A stretch of 64,000 nucleotides of DNA from Thermovirga lienii DSM 17291 (GTDB lineage Bacteria; Synergistota; Synergistia; Synergistales; Thermovirgaceae), in contig CP003096.1 in NCBI GenBank assembly GCA_000233775.1, positions 372,001-436,000 of the forward strand, given 5' to 3'. Shown here one piece after another: positions 18,180 through 48,876 of the stretch. A program made the translations under genes and the position numbers. The notes below the pieces were generated by a model. It searched no databases, had not been told where the DNA came from, and saw only the letters and a list, made by a program, of their open reading frames with translations. Every line of letters begins with the position of its first letter. Position 1 is the stretch's first letter.

Positions 18180-19100
18180 TCAATTGTAAGCAGGAGTGCT
18201 CAGGTACTTATCTCCTCTGTCTGGAGCGATGGTCACAATCACTGCACCTTTTGGGGCCTTTTCTGCCACCTTCATGGCTGCCCAAAGGTTCGCTCCGGAA
18301 GAGACTCCACAGAACAACCCCTCCTTTTTGCTCAACCACTTGGCCATGTCGAAGGCTTGCTCATCCTCGACAGTTATTATTTCGTCCACCACATCAAGGT
18401 CCAAGTTCTTAGGAATGAACCCTGCGCCTATTCCCTGTATGCCGTGGGGTCCAGGAGCGTTGCCGGAGAGCACCGCGCTTTTGGCCGGTTCCACACCGAT
18501 TACCTTTGCGGATGGAAAGGTCGATTTCAGTGCTTTGCCTACGCCTGATATGGTGCCTCCCGTTCCTATGCCTGCGACGAAGGCGAAAGGTTCCATGCCA
18601 TTTAGGTCCCTTATTATCTCGGGAGCAGTGGACACTGCGTGTGCCCAGGGGTTGCCAGGATTTGAGAACTGATCCGGCATGAACGCTCCAGGGGTGCTTT
18701 TTAGTATATCTGTGGCTGCTTCAATGGCTCCTTTCATGCCTTTTTCCGCTTTTGTTAGTACAAGTTCTGCTCCATAGGCTTTTAGGATGCTTCGCCTTTC
18801 TTCCGACATGGATTCCGGCATGGTGAGTATGACCTTAAGGCCCATGATGCTTCCAAGCATTGCGAGAGCTATGCCCGTGTTTCCACTAGTTGGTTCCACT
18901 ATTACCGTCTGCTCTTGGAGTTTTCCTTCCTTTTCAGCCATGTGAAGCATGCCCCAGGCTGCTCTATCCTTTATGGAGCCTCCTATGTTATTTCCTTCAA
19001 GCTTTACGAGTATGTGTGCCCCATTTTTGACTGGGGTTATGGTGTGCATGGGAGTTCTGCCTATCAATTTGACAAGAGATAGGGATGCTAGGGATTTCAT
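18180..19100 (-). CDS. cysK: Cysteine synthase (O-acetylserine sulfhydrylase)
   Basis: PLP enzyme that makes L-cysteine from O-acetylserine and sulfide, 306 residues. The Schiff-base lysine lies in NNIGGSIKDRAAW and the phosphate- and substrate-binding loop is PTSGNTGIAL; the glycine-rich PLP loop GTGGTISG and the C-terminal GVSSGAN also match. The start directly follows the cysE stop, so the pair is coupled. The order cysE-cysK is the standard two-step pathway from serine. Regulation probably comes from the structured leader upstream of cysE. Confidence 0.93.
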   Translation of the reverse strand: MKSLASLSLVKLIGRTPMHTITPVKNGAHILVKLEGNNIGGSIKDRAAWGMLHMAEKEGKLQEQTVIVEPTSGNTGIALAMLGSIMGLKVILTMPESMSEERRSILKAYGAELVLTKAEKGMKGAIEAATDILKSTPGAFMPDQFSNPGNPWAHAVSTAPEIIRDLNGMEPFAFVAGIGTGGTISGVGKALKSTFPSAKVIGVEPAKSAVLSGNAPGPHGIQGIGAGFIPKNLDLDVVDEIITVEDEQAFDMAKWLSKKEGLFCGVSSGANLWAAMKVAEKAPKGAVIVTIAPDRGDKYLSTPAYN

Positions 19101-19781
19101 TTAGATCACCACCCTTTTGGTAAAAATTTCTTTCGTTTTCTCTATATCCTTGAGCTGCCGCTTCAGGACTTCTATCTCCCTTTGCAGCCTGCTGATCTTT
19201 CCCATAATCTCCTTGTCAGATTCCGACGAGATGGTCTTTATGCCGTTTATTTTTACTATCCTGGCAGGGATTCCGATCACGGTGCTGTTGTCAGGGATAT
19301 CCTTCAGGACAACGCTATTTGCTCCTATCCTGCAGTTTTTGCCTATGGTGATGTTGCCCAAGACCCTTGCGCCGCTTCCTATTATGGTTCCGTCCCCTAT
19401 GGTTGGGTGTCTTTGAAACTCCTTCTCGTTGCCGGTAGCTCCCAGAGTGACTCCCTGATATATGGTCACTCCTTTCCCTACTATTGCGGTTTCGCCTATT
19501 ACGACGCCCATGCCGTGGTCTATGAAGACCCCTCCGGCTATTTGAGCACCGGGGTGGATCTCTATGCCCGTAAGCCACCGCACTATAAGGCTTATGAAAC
19601 GAGGCAAGATCCTCAATTTAAGCTTTTGGTACATGAAGTGGTTCACCTTGTGGATCAAGAGGGCATGAAAGCCAGGGTAGCACAAAATTATTTCCAAAAA
19701 CCCCAGCATACCGCCGCGGAAAGCGGGATCCTGGTCCTTTATGGCCTTGTAATCAGCTTTTATGTCTTTTAAGAAACTCAT
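19101..19781 (-). CDS. cysE: Serine O-acetyltransferase
   Basis: Makes O-acetylserine from serine and acetyl-CoA. The 226-residue core starts MSFLKDIKADYKAIKDQDPA, as in the short CysE/EpsC class, and contains left-handed beta-helix hexapeptide repeats with the active-site region HPGAQIAGGVFIDHGMGVVIG. AAGGAGGAG lies six bases before the ATG at 19781. The same frame continues upstream to a GTG at 19859 with its own excellent AAAGGAGG, which would add 26 residues beginning MESGCGCCSF; which start is used is not clear. A terminator hairpin and a structured RNA lie immediately upstream, suggesting attenuation. Confidence 0.92.
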   Translation of the reverse strand: MSFLKDIKADYKAIKDQDPAFRGGMLGFLEIILCYPGFHALLIHKVNHFMYQKLKLRILPRFISLIVRWLTGIEIHPGAQIAGGVFIDHGMGVVIGETAIVGKGVTIYQGVTLGATGNEKEFQRHPTIGDGTIIGSGARVLGNITIGKNCRIGANSVVLKDIPDNSTVIGIPARIVKINGIKTISSESDKEIMGKISRLQREIEVLKRQLKDIEKTKEIFTKRVVI

Positions 19782-19859
19782 GTTTTTCTCCTCCTTAGAT
19801 AGTTTGATTTCAAGTTTTTCACTGCTTTTGAAGCTACAACAACCGCAGCCGCTTTCCAC
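19782..19859 (-). other. In-frame cysteine-rich N-terminal extension or leader of CysE
   Basis: From the GTG at 19859, eight bases after AAAGGAGG, 26 codons run in frame into cysE. The N-terminal part contains the tandem codons TGC GGT TGT TGT, giving Gly-Cys-Gly-Cys-Cys. Ordinary short CysE proteins lack this. It may be a real N-terminal extension able to bind metal or sense thiols, or a cysteine-codon leader that slows ribosomes when cysteine is scarce. The good internal start at 19781 makes dual initiation possible. Confidence 0.5.
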
Positions 19860-19882: not shown

Positions 19883-19925
19883 TAGGAAAAATGAAAGCGG
19901 GCTTCCTCTCGAGAAAGCCCGCTTT
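19883..19925 (-). terminator. Intrinsic terminator/attenuator in the cysE leader
   Basis: On the minus strand AAAGCGGGCTT (19925-19915) pairs perfectly with AAGCCCGCTTT (19904-19894) across a ten-base loop, and is followed by a U-rich stretch TTTCATTTTT. It lies about 25 bases upstream of the first cysE start, so readthrough is needed for cysE expression. An upstream AAGCCCGC (19977-19970) is exactly complementary to the 5' arm and could form a competing antiterminator. Confidence 0.75.
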
Positions 19926-19942
19926 GGATCAAATTTATGTTC

Positions 19943-20051
19943 TCAGCTTCTTTTGGCCGGAAGGCATATGCGGGCTTTTTCTCCCGCAGCCTTTCCGGCT
20001 GCGGCAGAGGTCAACGAACCATCTGCCTACAACAACAAAGTACGAAGCTGA
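19943..20051 (-). ncRNA. Candidate structured leader RNA (riboswitch-like) upstream of cysE
   Basis: On the minus strand the perfect eight-base pair TCAGCTTC (20051-20044) with GAAGCTGA (19950-19943) closes a 93-base domain. Inside it are a hairpin GGCAGATGGT...ACCTCTGCC and a long hairpin pairing GCCGGAAAGGC, then TGCGGG, with CCCGCA, then GCCTTCCGGC. This makes a three-way junction followed by a terminator at the expected distance. I do not recognise it as a SAM, T-box, TPP or cobalamin element; in particular no T-box TGGNACCGCG motif is present. Its ligand, if any, is unknown. Confidence 0.55.
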
Positions 20052-20115
20052 AACTTTTCATCCCAAGAATACTCCTTGTTCTTCCATTTTAGGCAATCCT
20101 AACATATGTGTTTTT

Positions 20116-21105
20116 TTATGTCAAATAAGCTCTTTCAGAAAAGCCCTTGCAGAACCAGAATAGGATCCCTGCGCACAATGAAGCCGTTCTCCCTCCCTCA
20201 TCCAAAGGGGGGCTCATTTCGGTTATGTCCAGGTATCGTATTTTTCCAGTTTTCCCTGCGATGTAAGCTATCCTCTCCAGCTCTGGAGCCTTGAATCCCC
20301 TGGGATTGCTGGCCGAGGCGCCAGGTGCTTCATGGTTTCTTGCCGCATCTATGTCTATGGAGAGGGCTACAGCTTTCGTTCCTTCGCTTGCTATACGGCA
20401 GGCCTCAAGAAAGAACTCCATGGGCCTGTTGCCTATGCTGTTCAAGGTCATGACCGCTACATGTTGTTTTTTTACCCATTCGTAGTGATAAGGGGAGTTG
20501 TATGGTTCCTGTATTCCAAATTCGACGAAAGCTCTGGGGTCTAGGGCGTTGTTTGGCAATTCCTCCAAGGCCCTCCTGAAAGGTGTGCCACTAGTGATCT
20601 CCTTTTGGTATTCTCTTACGTCCAAGTGGCAGTCCACGTTGATGGCTCCAAGTTCCTTTTGTCCTAATTTTAGACCTTCTACAAGACCACAAAAACCAGC
20701 AAACGAAAGGTCATGGCCGCCTCCCAAGACTATGGGGAAGACCCCATTCTCCACGACGGTCTTTACGGCCTCTGCCAGTCTTGAATGGCTTTCCTTCAGC
20801 GTTGGGCCGGGTATTATATTCCCTATGTCTATTATTTTGAGGCCCATCAGGGCTTTCCCAAAGCCAGGGGTGAGCTTGTAAAAGGCTTTTCGTATGTGCT
20901 CTGGTCCCAAGGCAGCTCCGGGTTTTCCGCCGTTTGCCACTATTCCTCTGTCCTCTGGAAAACCTAGGATAGCAATATGAGCTTCCCTAAGCTCCTCAAT
21001 GACATTACCTCTTGAGGGCTTGACCAGGTCTCCCAACCTCGGGTCTGAAGGGTCATGGCGGCTGTAGAACCATTCTTGAGCAGGTGGATTTATGAAAAGT
21101 ACCAT
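20116..21105 (-). CDS. hutG: Formimidoylglutamase-like ureohydrolase
   Basis: Arginase/agmatinase-fold hydrolase of 329 residues; in this operon the likely reaction is N-formimidoyl-L-glutamate to glutamate plus formamide. Metal-binding segments are visible: GGGHDLSF, VDCHLD (the DxHxD motif) and SIDIDAARNHEAPG. The last replaces the usual DP after SxDxDxx with other residues, but APGASASNP is a pattern I associate with formimidoylglutamases and not with arginases. It is the last gene of the hut run, separated from hutU by 73 bases containing a hairpin. A formimidoyltransferase gene in the same operon offers a second route, so the exact substrate deserves testing. Confidence 0.8.
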   Translation of the reverse strand: MVLFINPPAQEWFYSRHDPSDPRLGDLVKPSRGNVIEELREAHIAILGFPEDRGIVANGGKPGAALGPEHIRKAFYKLTPGFGKALMGLKIIDIGNIIPGPTLKESHSRLAEAVKTVVENGVFPIVLGGGHDLSFAGFCGLVEGLKLGQKELGAINVDCHLDVREYQKEITSGTPFRRALEELPNNALDPRAFVEFGIQEPYNSPYHYEWVKKQHVAVMTLNSIGNRPMEFFLEACRIASEGTKAVALSIDIDAARNHEAPGASASNPRGFKAPELERIAYIAGKTGKIRYLDITEMSPPLDEGGRTASLCAGILFWFCKGFSERAYLT

Positions 21106-21124
21106 TTTTGGTTCCCCCTTATTG

Positions 21125-21155
21125 AAGAGGCCCCGACAATCTGCCGGGACCTCTT
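21125..21155. repeat. Intergenic hairpin between hutU and hutG
   Basis: AAGAGGCCCCGAC (21125-21137) pairs with GCCGGGACCTCTT (21143-21155) with two mismatches. On the minus strand it is not followed by a U-run, so it may be an mRNA-processing or partial-attenuation hairpin that lowers hutG expression relative to hutU. Confidence 0.5.
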
Positions 21156-21178
21156 TTGCGTCTTCTGGTCAGGGTTTC

Positions 21179-23215
21179 TTATTTCTTGTACTTTTTGATG
21201 GCTTCTTCTACGGTCTTGGATACCAGCTCATCGTCGGGGATGTAGGGAAGGGTTATGTGGTAGCTGTCCTTGTATTTGGCGTTGACTTCCCTGCTGACTT
21301 CCATGGCGTGTTCGCAGCGCCCCCATGCTCTTCTGGCCACGCCACCGAGAACGTCCCACATCATAGCGGACTTCAGTATCTCGTCAACCCGCTCTGAGCC
21401 GTCAAGGAGCATGCCAAATCCGCCATTGATGGCTTTACCTATGCCCACTCCGCCTCCGTTGTGGAGAGCACACAAGGTCATACCCCTTGCTGCGTTACCT
21501 GCGAAGCACTGGACTGCCATGTCGGCAGTTATGTTGCTTCCGTCCTTGATGTTGGAGGTCTCCCTGAAGGGAGAGTCGGTGCCCGAAACGTCGTGGTGGT
21601 CTCTTCCAAGCATGACGGGGCCTATCTCGCCCTTTCTAACCATTTCGTTGAATTTGAGAGCTATCTTGAGTCTTCCCTCTGCGTCCTGATAGAGAATCCT
21701 TGCCTGGGTTCCAACGACTAGTTTGTTCTTCTCAGCGTCCCTGATCCAGATCCAGTTGTCGTAATCCTGGGCTCTGCGGTTGGGGTCAATGCACTCCATG
21801 GCAGCTTTGTCGGTCTTTCTCAGGTCCTCTGGGTCTCCGCTGAGGCACACCCAACGGAATGGGCCGTAGCCGTAGTCGAAAAGGACTGGTCCCATTATGT
21901 CCTCCACGTAGGAAGGCCAGATGAAACCATCGTAGGTGTCCTTGCCGTTCTTGCATATCTCCTTGACCCCTGCGTCGAAGACGGCCTTCATGAAGGAGTT
22001 GCCGTAGTCAAAGAAGTAGGTTCCCCGCTCGGTCAGGATCTTTATCAGCTCGAAGTGCTTTCTAAGGGTTTCGTCAACTCTCCTGCGGTACTCCTCTGGA
22101 TTTTCGTGGAGCATCCTGGTCCTTTCCTCGAAGGTGAGGCCCACTGGGCAGTATCCACCCTCGTATGGAGCATGACAGGAGGTCTGGTCAGAGAGTAGAG
22201 GAATATGGATGTTATTGTCCACCGCGTACTGCAACAGGTCTACGACGTTGCCGTGGTAGGCTATGGAGAGAGGCCGTTTCTGATCTAAGGCTTCCTTAGC
22301 CATTGCGAAGGCCTTCTCGCAGCTGTCGGTGACCTCGGTGACCCATCCCTGCTTTCTTCTGGTCTCTATTCTTGAGGGATCCACTTCGGCGATAATGCCC
22401 ACGCCACCTGCTATCTCAACGGCTTTGGGCTGGGCGCCGCTCATGCCGCCGAGACCAGAAGAAACGAAGAGGATGCCGGCAAGGTTATCCTTGGGGCCTA
22501 CTCCAAGGCGCTGCCTTGCGGCGTTCAAGATGGTGTTGTATGTGCCGTGTACTATTCCTTGGGGGCCGATGTACATCCAGCCGCCAGCAGTCATCTGGCC
22601 GTAGTTCGTTACGCCAAGCTGCATGCCTCTGTGCCAGTCCTTGGGGTTGTCGAACATGCCCACCAGGAGGCCGTTGGTGATGATGACCCTCGGCGCATCA
22701 GGCCTTGATTTAAAGAGGCCCAACGGGTGACCGCTCTCTATGACCAAAGTGGTGTCATCGGTCAGTTCTTCCAGGTATTTTTTGATCAGCCTGTACTGGA
22801 GCCAGTTCTGGCAAACTTGTCCAGTCTCTCCGTAGGTGACCAGTTCGTAAGGATATAGGGCTACTTCGAAGTCCAGGTTGTTGTCTATCATGACCTGGAA
22901 GGCTTTGCCGGCCAGGCACTTACCTTTGTACTCGTGAATGGGTTTGCCCCAGATGCGTCCTGCGGGACGATATCTGTAAGCATAGATCCTACCCCTGGTC
23001 ATGAGCTCCTCCATGAACTCAGGAGCCAGTTTCTCATGGAGTTCCTCGGGTACGTACCTGAGAGCGTTCTTCAGGGCAAGCTCAGTTTCCTTTTGGTTAA
23101 GGGTCCAACCTCTATCGGGTGCCCTTCTTATTCCAGGTACGAACTCCGGGTACTCCGGAAGTTCAGCGTCCAGTTTTATGGTCATGGCTTCTCCGTTTAG
23201 GAAATTCAAATCCAT
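21179..23215 (-). CDS. hutU: Urocanate hydratase (long form)
   Basis: Second enzyme of histidine degradation, converting urocanate to 4-imidazolone-5-propanoate with a tightly bound NAD+. The sequence has urocanase blocks such as GWMYIGPQGIVHGTYNT, SSGLGGMSGAQPKA and DQTSCHAPYEGGYCPVG, and the C-terminal GNAARGMTLCALHNGGGVGIG. At 678 residues it is longer than the roughly 555-residue proteobacterial enzyme; related long forms occur in other anaerobes. A ribosome-binding AAAGGAGGG precedes the start. It sits between fchA and hutG. No histidine ammonia-lyase gene lies in the window, so hutH must be elsewhere. Confidence 0.95.
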   Translation of the reverse strand: MDLNFLNGEAMTIKLDAELPEYPEFVPGIRRAPDRGWTLNQKETELALKNALRYVPEELHEKLAPEFMEELMTRGRIYAYRYRPAGRIWGKPIHEYKGKCLAGKAFQVMIDNNLDFEVALYPYELVTYGETGQVCQNWLQYRLIKKYLEELTDDTTLVIESGHPLGLFKSRPDAPRVIITNGLLVGMFDNPKDWHRGMQLGVTNYGQMTAGGWMYIGPQGIVHGTYNTILNAARQRLGVGPKDNLAGILFVSSGLGGMSGAQPKAVEIAGGVGIIAEVDPSRIETRRKQGWVTEVTDSCEKAFAMAKEALDQKRPLSIAYHGNVVDLLQYAVDNNIHIPLLSDQTSCHAPYEGGYCPVGLTFEERTRMLHENPEEYRRRVDETLRKHFELIKILTERGTYFFDYGNSFMKAVFDAGVKEICKNGKDTYDGFIWPSYVEDIMGPVLFDYGYGPFRWVCLSGDPEDLRKTDKAAMECIDPNRRAQDYDNWIWIRDAEKNKLVVGTQARILYQDAEGRLKIALKFNEMVRKGEIGPVMLGRDHHDVSGTDSPFRETSNIKDGSNITADMAVQCFAGNAARGMTLCALHNGGGVGIGKAINGGFGMLLDGSERVDEILKSAMMWDVLGGVARRAWGRCEHAMEVSREVNAKYKDSYHITLPYIPDDELVSKTVEEAIKKYKK

Positions 23216-23260
23216 CTTTTATTCCCTCCTTTTGTCTTTCATCATTTCCAGACCCCGGTT

Positions 23261-23890
23261 TTATCCAAGGGCCTTCTCTACGATTTTCCCTGCCTGGTCG
23301 GCCAAATTGAAGATATTGTCCAAGGTCTCCTTCACTACTTGGTTTGTCTCTGAAACGAAGGCCTCATCCTTGATGCTTCCGAGGTTTATCCTGACGTTAT
23401 AGGCTGCAGCTATTCCCGCGGCCTTGGCCAGAAGCGCTGCTGTTCCGGCATCGGTTATGGCGTTGGGGTTGCCTTTTTCAGCGGCAGTGAGGGCTATCTC
23501 TGCCAGGGCTTTGCAAGCTTTCAAAGTCTCCAGAGGTACTTGCACTGCTTTCTTGAGCCCTTCCTGCATGGCCTTACTTCTGGCGGCCTTTTGCTCTTCT
23601 GTATCCTTGGGCATCTTCATGGCGGCCATGAAGTCGTTGAAAGCTTCAGTGTCTTCCTCCATGAGCTTTAGGAAACGGTCCTTGAGGGCGTCTCCAGATT
23701 CTATTACCTTCTCCATGGATTCCCAATTATCCTTGTACTTTTCCTTTCCTACGGTAAGTCTGCCCACCATGGATGAGAGTGCAGAGCCCAAGGAGGCGGC
23801 CAAAGCAGCTACGCTCCCTCCTCCTGGAGCAGGAGAGGAAGATGCAAGTTCATCAGTAAAGGCTTTTACGGTAAGTTCTGCAAGTTTCAT
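23261..23890 (-). CDS. fchA: Formimidoyltetrahydrofolate cyclodeaminase
   Basis: Stand-alone cyclodeaminase of 209 residues that converts 5-formimidoyl-THF to 5,10-methenyl-THF and ammonia. The family N-terminal block SSPAPGGGSVAALAASLGSALSSMV is clear, followed by a long helical body (DAGTAALLAKAAGIAAAYNVRINL). In mammals this domain is fused to the formimidoyltransferase; here the two are separate genes in one operon, as in other anaerobes. The gene lies 15 bases downstream of hutI. Confidence 0.93.
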   Translation of the reverse strand: MKLAELTVKAFTDELASSSPAPGGGSVAALAASLGSALSSMVGRLTVGKEKYKDNWESMEKVIESGDALKDRFLKLMEEDTEAFNDFMAAMKMPKDTEEQKAARSKAMQEGLKKAVQVPLETLKACKALAEIALTAAEKGNPNAITDAGTAALLAKAAGIAAAYNVRINLGSIKDEAFVSETNQVVKETLDNIFNLADQAGKIVEKALG

Positions 23891-23905
23891 TTTTCATCCT
23901 CCTAA

Positions 23906-25150
23906 CTAGGCTACGTGAATGCCTTTTTTGTAAACCTCCACTACGGGAGAAACGCCGGCGTGATATGCCAGGATCGCGGGAGTTTCCCCGTCGAGGAGCA
24001 GGAAGTCCGCTTGTTTTCCTACCTCCAGGCTCCCTACCTTGTGGTTTAGGCCGATGGAGTAGGCAGCGTTAAGGGTGGATGCTACTAGCGCTTCCTCTAC
24101 TGTCATGTCCATGTTCAGGACGGCGAGGCCGAAGACGAAGGGCATAGATTCAGTGTAGCTTGAGCCTGGGTTACAATCTGTCGCCAATGCCACTGGAACT
24201 CCCAGTTCTATCATCTTTCTGGCCTTCGCGTAGGGTTTCTTCAGGCTGTATGCTGTCGCAGGCAAAAGGTCGGCTATTACGCCCTTTTCGGCCATGGCCT
24301 TGAGGTTTTCCTCGTTTGCCGCCAAAAGATGTTCTGCCGAAGCGGTTTCAAGCTCCGCTGCAAGGCCTGCTCCGCCAAGGTCGTGGACTTCATCGGCATG
24401 GATTTTCAGTTTGAATCCCCTGTTTCTAGCGGCTTCTAGTATCCTTCTGCTCTGTTCTACAGAGAAAACGCCTTCTTCGCAAAAAACGTCGCAGTATTGA
24501 GCTATACCCTGCTTTGAGGCAGCAGGTATCATTTCATCTATTAACAGCTTCACGTACTCTTCAGGGTTCGATTTGTATTCTTCGGGTATAGCGTGAGCCC
24601 CCATGAAGGTTGCTATCACGTCCAGAGGTGTTTCTTTGCCTACCCTCTCTATCACCCTGAGCATTTTGAGTTCTGTTTCGGTATCTAGGCCATATCCGCT
24701 TTTAATCTCCATGGATGTGGTGCCGAAGCTCAGGGCTGTGAGCACGTTGTCCAGCGTTGTGGACAAGAGCTCTTCTTCTTTGGCATTTCTTACCGATCTC
24801 ACCGATGAGAGTATGCCGCCTCCAGCTTTAAGGATGTCGAGGTACGATGCTCCCGCAAGGCGCATGGAGAACTCTTTCTCTCTTCGCTCCGCAAAGCATA
24901 TGTGGGTATGGGGATCTACGAAACCAGGTATCATGCAAGCGCCCTGGCAGTCTACTTCCATATCCACCTCCATGTCCTTTGCCTTTGCAAGGACATCCTC
25001 CTCAGATCCTACTGCAGTGATGATTCCCTTATCGCATAGCAGAGCGCCCCTTTCCCAGGACCTTACATGCCCTTGGAGCTTTCCTGCCAAGGGTTTGCCT
25101 TCGTCCACAGGCGTATATATGGCAGCGTTGCGAAAGAGGGTAGTAAGCAT
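23906..25150 (-). CDS. hutI: Imidazolonepropionase
   Basis: Metal-dependent amidohydrolase of 414 residues that opens imidazolonepropionate to N-formimidoyl-L-glutamate. The amidohydrolase HxH is in FVDPHTHICFAERREKEF, and later ligands are in KIHADEVHDLGGAGLAAE and ATDCNPGSSYTESM. Length and motif order match HutI. It starts two bases after the ftcD stop, so translation is coupled. It sits centrally in the iclR-ftcD-hutI-fchA-hutU-hutG run. Confidence 0.95.
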   Translation of the reverse strand: MLTTLFRNAAIYTPVDEGKPLAGKLQGHVRSWERGALLCDKGIITAVGSEEDVLAKAKDMEVDMEVDCQGACMIPGFVDPHTHICFAERREKEFSMRLAGASYLDILKAGGGILSSVRSVRNAKEEELLSTTLDNVLTALSFGTTSMEIKSGYGLDTETELKMLRVIERVGKETPLDVIATFMGAHAIPEEYKSNPEEYVKLLIDEMIPAASKQGIAQYCDVFCEEGVFSVEQSRRILEAARNRGFKLKIHADEVHDLGGAGLAAELETASAEHLLAANEENLKAMAEKGVIADLLPATAYSLKKPYAKARKMIELGVPVALATDCNPGSSYTESMPFVFGLAVLNMDMTVEEALVASTLNAAYSIGLNHKVGSLEVGKQADFLLLDGETPAILAYHAGVSPVVEVYKKGIHVA

Positions 25151-25152
25151 GG

Positions 25153-26070
25153 TTAATCTTCCTCTCTCATGAGCTCAAGGAGTTTGAGCTCCAAGACCTG
25201 GGAAGGATCGAAATCGTCAATTTGCAAGTAGTACTCGGCGCTCTGGATCAGCGCTGCGGCGGGTATCATACCGTATACTTCCGTGCCGTTTATGGTTACG
25301 CCCCACCTTGCAGCCTCCATCCGGATGAACTCCAATACCCTGTAGATGGCGGTCTTGTCGTAGTCAACGATGTTCATGCTGACCTGTACCAGGCCCTTTT
25401 CCTCCAAGGCCAAGCCTATGCCTTTCACTGCAGTGAATCCGCCACCTGAGGCTCTTACCCTCTTTGCTATGGTCTTTGCTATATTGACGTCGGTGGTGTT
25501 CAAGTTCACGTTGAAGGCTATGAGGAACTTCCTGGCGCCTATAACTGTGGCTCCAGCGGTTGGATGGAGCTTTGGCTCTCCCACATCGGGATGACGCTCT
25601 GGATTTGTTACTTCTTCCTTGAGAGCTTCGTACTGGCCTTTGCGGATGACCTCCAGGCGGGTCCTTTCGGGTCTGAGTGCCGCTTCTTCATAGTAGTAAA
25701 CGGGAATTTTCAGTTCGTTGTAATAGCGCTCTCCGAACTTTCTTGCCAACTCAACGCATTCTTCCATGGTTATGTTGCTTATAGGTGTGAAGGGTATAAC
25801 GTCTATGGCACCGATCCTTGGGTGGGCGCCCTGGTGGGTGTTCATGTCGATGTGCTGCATGGCTATCCTTGAAGCTTCCAGTACTGCATCGCATATGGGC
25901 TGGGGTTCGCCAGCGAGGCTGACTACGAGTCTGTTGTGATCCTCGTCAGCGCGGTAGTCAAAAAGGTAGCAACCTTTTTGTTTCTTGAAAGGTTCGACGA
26001 TTGCCTCGATTACGTCCTTTCTTCTTCCCTCACTGAAATTTGGTACGCACTCAATTAGCTGTTTTGCCAT
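25153..26070 (-). CDS. ftcD: Glutamate formimidoyltransferase
   Basis: Transfers the formimidoyl group from formimidoylglutamate to tetrahydrofolate, leaving glutamate. The 305-residue protein begins with the family block LIECVPNFSEGRRKDVIEAIV and contains HQGAHPRIGAIDVIPF and LHPTAGATVIGARKFLIAFNVNL. It corresponds only to the transferase part of the mammalian bifunctional protein; its partner cyclodeaminase is encoded two genes downstream. It follows the regulator gene by 34 bases. Confidence 0.94.
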   Translation of the reverse strand: MAKQLIECVPNFSEGRRKDVIEAIVEPFKKQKGCYLFDYRADEDHNRLVVSLAGEPQPICDAVLEASRIAMQHIDMNTHQGAHPRIGAIDVIPFTPISNITMEECVELARKFGERYYNELKIPVYYYEEAALRPERTRLEVIRKGQYEALKEEVTNPERHPDVGEPKLHPTAGATVIGARKFLIAFNVNLNTTDVNIAKTIAKRVRASGGGFTAVKGIGLALEEKGLVQVSMNIVDYDKTAIYRVLEFIRMEAARWGVTINGTEVYGMIPAAALIQSAEYYLQIDDFDPSQVLELKLLELMREED

Positions 26071-48546: not shown

Positions 48547-48649
48547 GGGGAATCCCTCCTTTCTCATAAGGGCCTTATGGCCTTGTCTAGGGGGGAACCA
48601 TCCAAATCATGCTTGAAGGGGTTAGGAAGATAAGGTCGGTGAAAAGTGA

Positions 48650-48743
48650 TGCAATTTCCTACGCCGGCATGACCCGGATCAGGTTCAAGGGGTCGAGAAT
48701 ACATCTCCTCTCAGCCCGCATATGGCAGGCTCCCCCATTGCAA
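48650..48743 (-). promoter_or_regulatory. TPP riboswitch (THI element)
   Basis: On the minus strand the conserved pieces appear in order: GGGGGAGCC, GCGGGCTGAGAGGAGAT, GACCCCTTGAACCTGATCC, then GTCATGCCGGCGTAGGAA, closed by pairing of TTGCAAT with ATTGCA. This is the standard thiamine-pyrophosphate aptamer. No strong terminator follows before thiT, so control of translation initiation is more likely than attenuation. Confidence 0.95.
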
Positions 48744-48876
48744 AGCAATTTATAATCCTAAAAATAAATAATGTCAAATGGCTAAGTTAAGCTGAGGTGT
48801 ATAGGGATTTGCTGTGGTATATTTATCCCCGTAGCCCTTATATAGAAAATCTTCTTCAGAGATGGTGGTTTAAAAT

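Follow-up and report, generated by a model that had tools for sequence, protein, structure and literature searches.

The his attenuator of enterobacteria is organized in six segments, designated A to F. How attenuation of the his-operon type proceeds is outlined in general terms in the accessible part of PMC9413887. The leader upstream of cysE in Thermovirga lienii DSM 17291 resembles this system in three respects: a short leader ORF holds regulatory codons in a row, an intrinsic terminator precedes the structural genes, and the predicted pairing is A:B, C:D, and E:F under a plentiful supply of the amino acid but B:C and D:E under scarcity. Unlike the his attenuator, it involves cysteine rather than histidine, precedes cysE-cysK, occurs in Synergistota, and contains an extra long-range stem (P0).

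In Rhodobacterales, uORFC-8-2 is a Cys-codon attenuator located before cysS (PMC8632094, available text), and it shares with the present leader an ORF with tandem Cys codons, a structured RNA, an intrinsic terminator, and a proposed stall at the Cys codons. The two are set apart by description: in the alphaproteobacterial element, the peptide has two Cys codons (positions 14-15) and the gene downstream encodes cysteinyl-tRNA synthetase, whereas the element described here has three (positions 9-11) and precedes cysE. The leader in our window (the whole stretch of DNA analyzed, 64,000 nucleotides) has neither cysS downstream nor Cys codons at positions 14-15. For Actinobacteria, the available text of PMC1262725 describes Cys leader peptides before cysteine genes, without terminators. 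These polycysteine ORFs are likewise short, carry a run of Cys codons, and have cysteine genes downstream, but they are described in that text without a conserved terminator hairpin, whereas an intrinsic terminator is nearly always present in the leaders studied here. The accessible portion of a later paper terms the control exerted by the actinobacterial leaders translational. In Corynebacterium glutamicum, the message for the ilvBNC leader peptide is discussed as leaderless and as having a transcription terminator, with the first hairpin serving as an anti-antiterminator (PMC11857589, in the part available). This arrangement is a likeness to the present system, although ilvBNC concerns branched-chain amino acids, other genes, and another phylum. 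In T. lienii itself, 78 intergenic regions were screened by Stav et al. 2019 (PMC6429828); the main text in its accessible form does not contain the word cysteine, and its tables may list this region. A literature search, thin on subscription journals, found no attenuator report for cysE or for Synergistota.

The regulatory element lies on the minus strand of the window, between a hutG-like gene and cysE-cysK, in a contig of 1,967,774 bases (2.0-Mb genome). We interpret it as a ribosome-mediated transcription attenuator of the his/trp type that controls cysE-cysK by sensing charged tRNA-Cys, with no aptamer, and assign this reading a probability of about 0.88. We are highly confident of the kind of element, a conserved cysteine attenuator, and less so of what exactly P0 and D:E do. 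The element is a known kind of switch at a new gene (cysE) and in a new phylum, with some unusual parts. The genes and the translated parts of the leader are as follows.

20096..20124, minus strand: sigma-70-like promoter TTGACA-17-TAGGAT, with 10/12 positions matching and a TG preceding the -10; it overlaps the hutG-like gene at its 3' end
20072..20077, minus strand: Shine-Dalgarno sequence AAGGAG, 10 nt ahead of the leader peptide ATG, read from the sequence
20011..20061, minus strand: leader peptide ORF MKSFSFVLCCCRQMVR, 16 codons plus stop, with an ATG start; homologous short Cys ORFs occur in 56/59 cognate cysE leaders
20029..20037, minus strand: putative sensor, three consecutive TGT Cys codons (codons 9-11), read from the sequence
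19782..19859, minus strand: Cys-rich in-frame stretch VESGCGCC..., past the terminator and before the cysE ATG at 19781, read from the sequence
19101..19781, minus strand: cysE, serine O-acetyltransferase (TIGR01172, 219.3 bits, cut-off 210.65)
18180..19100, minus strand: cysK, cysteine synthase A (TIGR01139, 393.6 bits, cut-off 350.95)

The hutG-like gene upstream of the leader matched TIGR01227 at 178.9 bits, under the cut-off of that model. Of the histidine-degradation genes that occupy 20116-26070 (minus strand) immediately upstream of the cysE leader, it is the one nearest the leader; farther upstream are urocanase-, cyclodeaminase-, imidazolonepropionase-, and formiminotransferase-like frames, these four being assigned by eye. 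Elsewhere in the window, a TPP riboswitch (RF00059) is located at 48639-48746 (minus strand, 79.5 bits). The relative G005 has identical promoter hexamers, spacing, and distance, and its leader ORF reads MKINSFKFCCCRQMVS followed by a stop codon, with TGC as the first Cys codon.

The minus-strand segment 20051..19883 had a minimum free energy of -76.7 kcal/mol (z -6.53), which none of 200 shuffles equaled. The first-pass annotation of this DNA had proposed a structured leader with a closing stem of 8 bp, two internal hairpins, and a terminator; the fold reproduced this architecture on the minus strand across the same segment. The exact complementarity that it had reported between AAGCCCGC in the second hairpin and GCGGGCTT in the terminator 5' arm also held, and so did the cysteine biosynthesis genes downstream, since cysE and cysK are both above their NCBIfam cut-offs. 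The terminator, given there as 11 base pairs, has 14 pairs in the fold, and the strand, the Cys leader peptide, and the promoter-like TTGACA-17-TAGGAT had not been mentioned. The structural parts are listed below in the order of transcription.

20044..20051, minus strand: 5' arm of the closing stem P0, TCAGCTTC, within the leader peptide codons (fold; P0 over 42 leaders)
20003..20027, minus strand: hairpin A:B (P1), which holds the ORF stop codon (fold, covariation)
19997..20004, minus strand: core of segment B, CCGCAGCC, overlapping the A:B 3' arm (B:C 97% paired in 25 leaders)
19956..19999, minus strand: hairpin C:D (P2), which hides D (fold, covariation)
19984..19991, minus strand: segment C, GGCTGCGG, partner of B or of D (triple covariation)
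19970..19978, minus strand: segment D, AAAGCCCGC, putative antiterminator partner of the terminator 5' arm (duplex, pairing, and constrained-fold tests)
19943..19950, minus strand: 3' arm of P0, GAAGCTGA (fold; P0 over 42 leaders)
19894..19925, minus strand: intrinsic terminator E:F, 14 pairs, with the U-rich tail CATTTTTCC (terminator search, covariation)

The Cys codons end one base ahead of hairpin A:B, and P0 links codons that precede them to sequence immediately ahead of the terminator. The leader combines three features by which an attenuator is recognized, namely, successive codons for the amino acid that the genes produce, a terminator between ORF and gene, and, as computed, mutually exclusive stems gated by the ribosome.

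The conservation of the Cys run was surveyed in 185 genomes of the phylum, 100 of which encode a relative of CysE (E up to 1e-30). Seventy loci were oriented, comprising a close group of 59 (tblastn E below 1e-45) and 11 from the 41 weaker genomes, and ORFs of 8-45 codons were sought within at most 350 bases upstream of cysE. Three consecutive Cys codons were found in a short upstream ORF at 49 of the 59 close-group loci, and at least two at 54/59. Two further loci (L022 and L023) have Cys-Ile-Cys at the same place, such that 56/59 cognate loci carry one form or the other. The leader element is missing in the remaining three: L027 and L044, both in the outgroup family f11, and L038. No Cys run was found in the 11 distant CysE loci, on the reverse strand of the 59 loci, or in 59 intervals inside cysE, and shuffling yielded a mean of 0.2/59 (0 or 1 locus per round, 20 rounds). 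The runs use TGT 141 times and TGC 28 times. Homopolymer runs of other residues occurred at 17 (L), 16 (A), 8 (V), and 8 (R) loci, and the L, A, and V runs are probably the same TGT/TGC repeats in other frames.

A leader pattern of the CCCRW type occurred at 14 places in 13 of the 185 genomes (control 0), and all 14 were accounted for as cysE leaders when their coordinates were compared with the CysE search. Because all places with this pattern precede cysE, the element belongs to cysE. A cysK-like sequence was found beside it at 35/59 loci within the stretch retrieved. In a wider set of 80 cysE loci, the Cys run was found in two, a Synergistes and an Acetomicrobium record, and in 0/78 of the loci outside the phylum. 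A search for a second copy in the T. lienii genome returned two weak matches only, one of them the terminator palindrome and the other (L003) an unrelated stretch. One locus of another genome (L165, G018:C4:166500-171500) has an extra copy of the Cys leader before a broken cysE copy. In an uncultured Lachnospira of Firmicutes (L114), a short Cys-rich frame, MKNCCSGCSGCRKQP, lies 39 nt upstream of cysE; this may be a chance occurrence or an independent case.

An intrinsic terminator is present between the Cys ORF and cysE in 55/56 leaders, 74-134 bases past the Cys codons; the sole exception (L050) has a strong hairpin and a poor U tract. For covariation, 25 of the 56 leaders, chosen by eye as alignable and excluding the large family f9, were aligned. 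The helices A:B, C:D, and E:F together are 89.8% paired in these leaders, with two-sided changes in 19/31 pairs; none of 500 shuffles was as high on any of five measures, and slid controls were 41-49% paired. Such stems, which keep pairing while their letters change, fit ribosome-mediated attenuation. The competing helix B:C is 97% paired in the same alignment, and D:E only 65%. In the column sets 44-57-93 and 42-59-91, both of the mutually exclusive pairs are kept in 47/50 cases, compared with a mean of 33.1 and a maximum of 39 in 1000 shuffles by a statistic that ignores sequence kinship. This double constraint on segment C, like the ORF with its Cys run, the terminator, and the covarying helices, comes from sequence and comparison, and we regard it as the strongest sign of a true switch.

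Duplex and fold tests were conducted on 42 of 55 leaders, with near-identical ones removed. The terminator 5' arm is not unusually complementary to the leader upstream of it (mean z -0.60 versus -0.40 for the control arm, p 0.43 for the difference; window alone, p 0.065). Per-locus complementarity of this arm was accordingly rejected as proof of an antiterminator, being no better than that of the control arm.

One competitor to our reading is that the Cys leader peptide acts mainly via translation or Rho-dependent termination and that the hairpin at 19894 is weak or constitutive. The Cys leader peptides without terminators in Actinobacteria (PMC1262725, available text) provide a precedent, and the second Cys-rich translated stretch past the terminator in the window is in line with it. 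We nevertheless consider it very unlikely, since a strong hairpin with a U-rich tail is present in 55/56 leaders and covaries in the 25 aligned, and since the competing pairs target the terminator.

The gating expected of a ribosome-mediated attenuator was modeled by constrained folding of the leader, truncated at the terminator loop, with the bases under the modeled ribosome held unpaired. In the window, the probability of upstream sequence sequestering the terminator 5' arm was 0.33 in the free leader, 0.84 with the ribosome stalled at the Cys codons, and 0.33 with the ribosome at the stop codon; the same antiterminator pairing in G005 gave 0.28, 0.74, and 0.22, respectively. The minimum-energy fold of the stalled window leader has B:C and D:E. 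Across the 42 leaders, stalling raised antiterminator pairing by >0.1 in 17 and lowered it by >0.1 in 5 (stalled versus free, Wilcoxon p 0.0014, over sequences that are not independent). When the fold was begun at or near the Cys codons, without P0, stalling brought no gain in the window (0.85 to 0.79). The complementarity of the P0 arms has a mean z of -0.99 over the 42 leaders (Wilcoxon 7e-7), whereas reversed (-0.05) and swapped (-0.25) controls are not significant; taken singly, neither the window (p 0.20) nor G005 (z +0.3) has a significant P0. The P0 5' arm would be covered while the ribosome occupies the Cys codons, and P0 may lock D away after the ribosome leaves.

In the mechanism that we propose, translation, stalling, the order of folding, and the response to cysteine are predicted. 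Transcription would start near 20089, and a ribosome would translate the 16-codon peptide. With ample Cys-tRNA, the ribosome would pass the three Cys codons and halt at the stop codon within A:B; A:B, C:D, and P0 would then form, D would be hidden, and E:F would stop transcription before cysE. With scarce Cys-tRNA, the ribosome would stall on the Cys codons and cover A and the P0 5' arm, such that B:C could pair, D would be free to pair with E, no terminator would form, and cysE-cysK would be transcribed. An untranslated leader is expected to fold as in the cysteine-replete, terminating state.

The first-pass annotation had suggested that the leader may sense cysteine, O-acetylserine, or a sulfur metabolite. 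Under a metabolite-riboswitch reading, such a compound would bind at the three-way junction and control the terminator, and the short ORF would play no part. The three-way junction is indeed stable, its closing stem has phylum-wide support, cysteine genes lie downstream, and a YATA motif is conserved in the C:D loop region (44/55 leaders versus 7.4 in shuffles). However, the element that varies least is the Cys-codon run, which has zero or near-zero counts in the controls. Outside this run, the letters of the junction and loops differ between families, and YATA is missing from the C:D loop of both the window and G005. The leader also has no Rfam match, and we judge this explanation very unlikely. 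What endures of the earlier proposal is a cis-regulatory leader, linked to cysteine, in which terminator and antiterminator exclude each other; the aptamer for cysteine, O-acetylserine, or a sulfur metabolite is not supported, given that a putatively translated Cys-codon run is the most constant element. The covariation that it had suggested looking for is present, yet in support of a ribosome-gated switch.

Rfam includes a T-box covariance model. The Rfam search, which had also been suggested, found nothing at this element at the gathering threshold and thus places the leader in no Rfam class; matches up to E 10 were all far under the cut-offs and mostly on the terminator hairpin, and eight leader loci searched whole had no match. 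A riboswitch or T-box identity was rejected because no Rfam family matches at the gathering threshold. The YATA motif (often CATAG) lies 38-75 nt past the Cys run in the set of 55 leaders and recurs even where the stems diverge. In some f9 leaders, it contains the stop codon of the ORF.

We assign a negligible probability to the view that the element serves chiefly to terminate the histidine-degradation operon upstream and leaves cysE unregulated. It does lie downstream of the hutG-like gene on the same strand, but it accompanies cysE throughout the phylum, a promoter-like sequence of its own is located where hutG ends, and the helices ahead of the terminator covary.

Among the leaders that we interpret as attenuators, the families differ in how the Cys ORF may be started. 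In all 26 leaders of family f9, a promoter-like pair has its -10 element ending 6-9 bases before a start codon of the Cys ORF; by a stricter promoter score, this applies to 18/26 (1.6 expected) and to 0/28 of the other leaders tested. In most other families, there is a Shine-Dalgarno-like site, and the promoter lies about 25-56 bases upstream. A promoter-ATG-Cys pattern had 16 matches in 12 of the 185 genomes (control 0), which by coordinates are cysE leaders in all but one case (G137, with an early stop in the frame). Judging by their predicted start sites, the Cys leader ORFs of f9 appear to be leaderless. They resemble a leaderless polycysteine leader that is reportedly the subject, by title, of a 2020 study of mycobacteria by Canestrari.

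A Cys-rich translated stretch past the terminator, with its own Shine-Dalgarno-like site, was observed in 5/55 leaders (the window, L006, L048, L051, and L055). It reads VESGCGCC in two Thermovirga-like genomes and MECDCIYCC, MEIDCPCTCKC, and MESDCPYAC in three f6 genomes; it is in frame with cysE in four of the five and out of frame in L048. In the window, this stretch may be an alternative start with its own Shine-Dalgarno sequence, or a second sensor. We tentatively put forward a broader scheme, which we regard as possible but rather doubtful: a Synergistota-wide attenuator in which P0 would lock the antiterminator only after the ribosome leaves the Cys codons, in which the second Cys-rich stretch, present in at least two families, would act as a translational check, and in which the f9 ORF would start within 0-2 bases of the start of the message.

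Under the reading proposed here, what looked like an orphan riboswitch becomes a cysteine sensor gated by the ribosome, and a mechanism of cysteine control is offered for most of the sampled Synergistota with this cysE. The diverged leaders, which share one doubly pairing segment, are well suited as a natural test of switch covariation. Furthermore, the occurrence of Shine-Dalgarno and leaderless leader ORFs at one gene makes both kinds of start comparable within a single attenuator.
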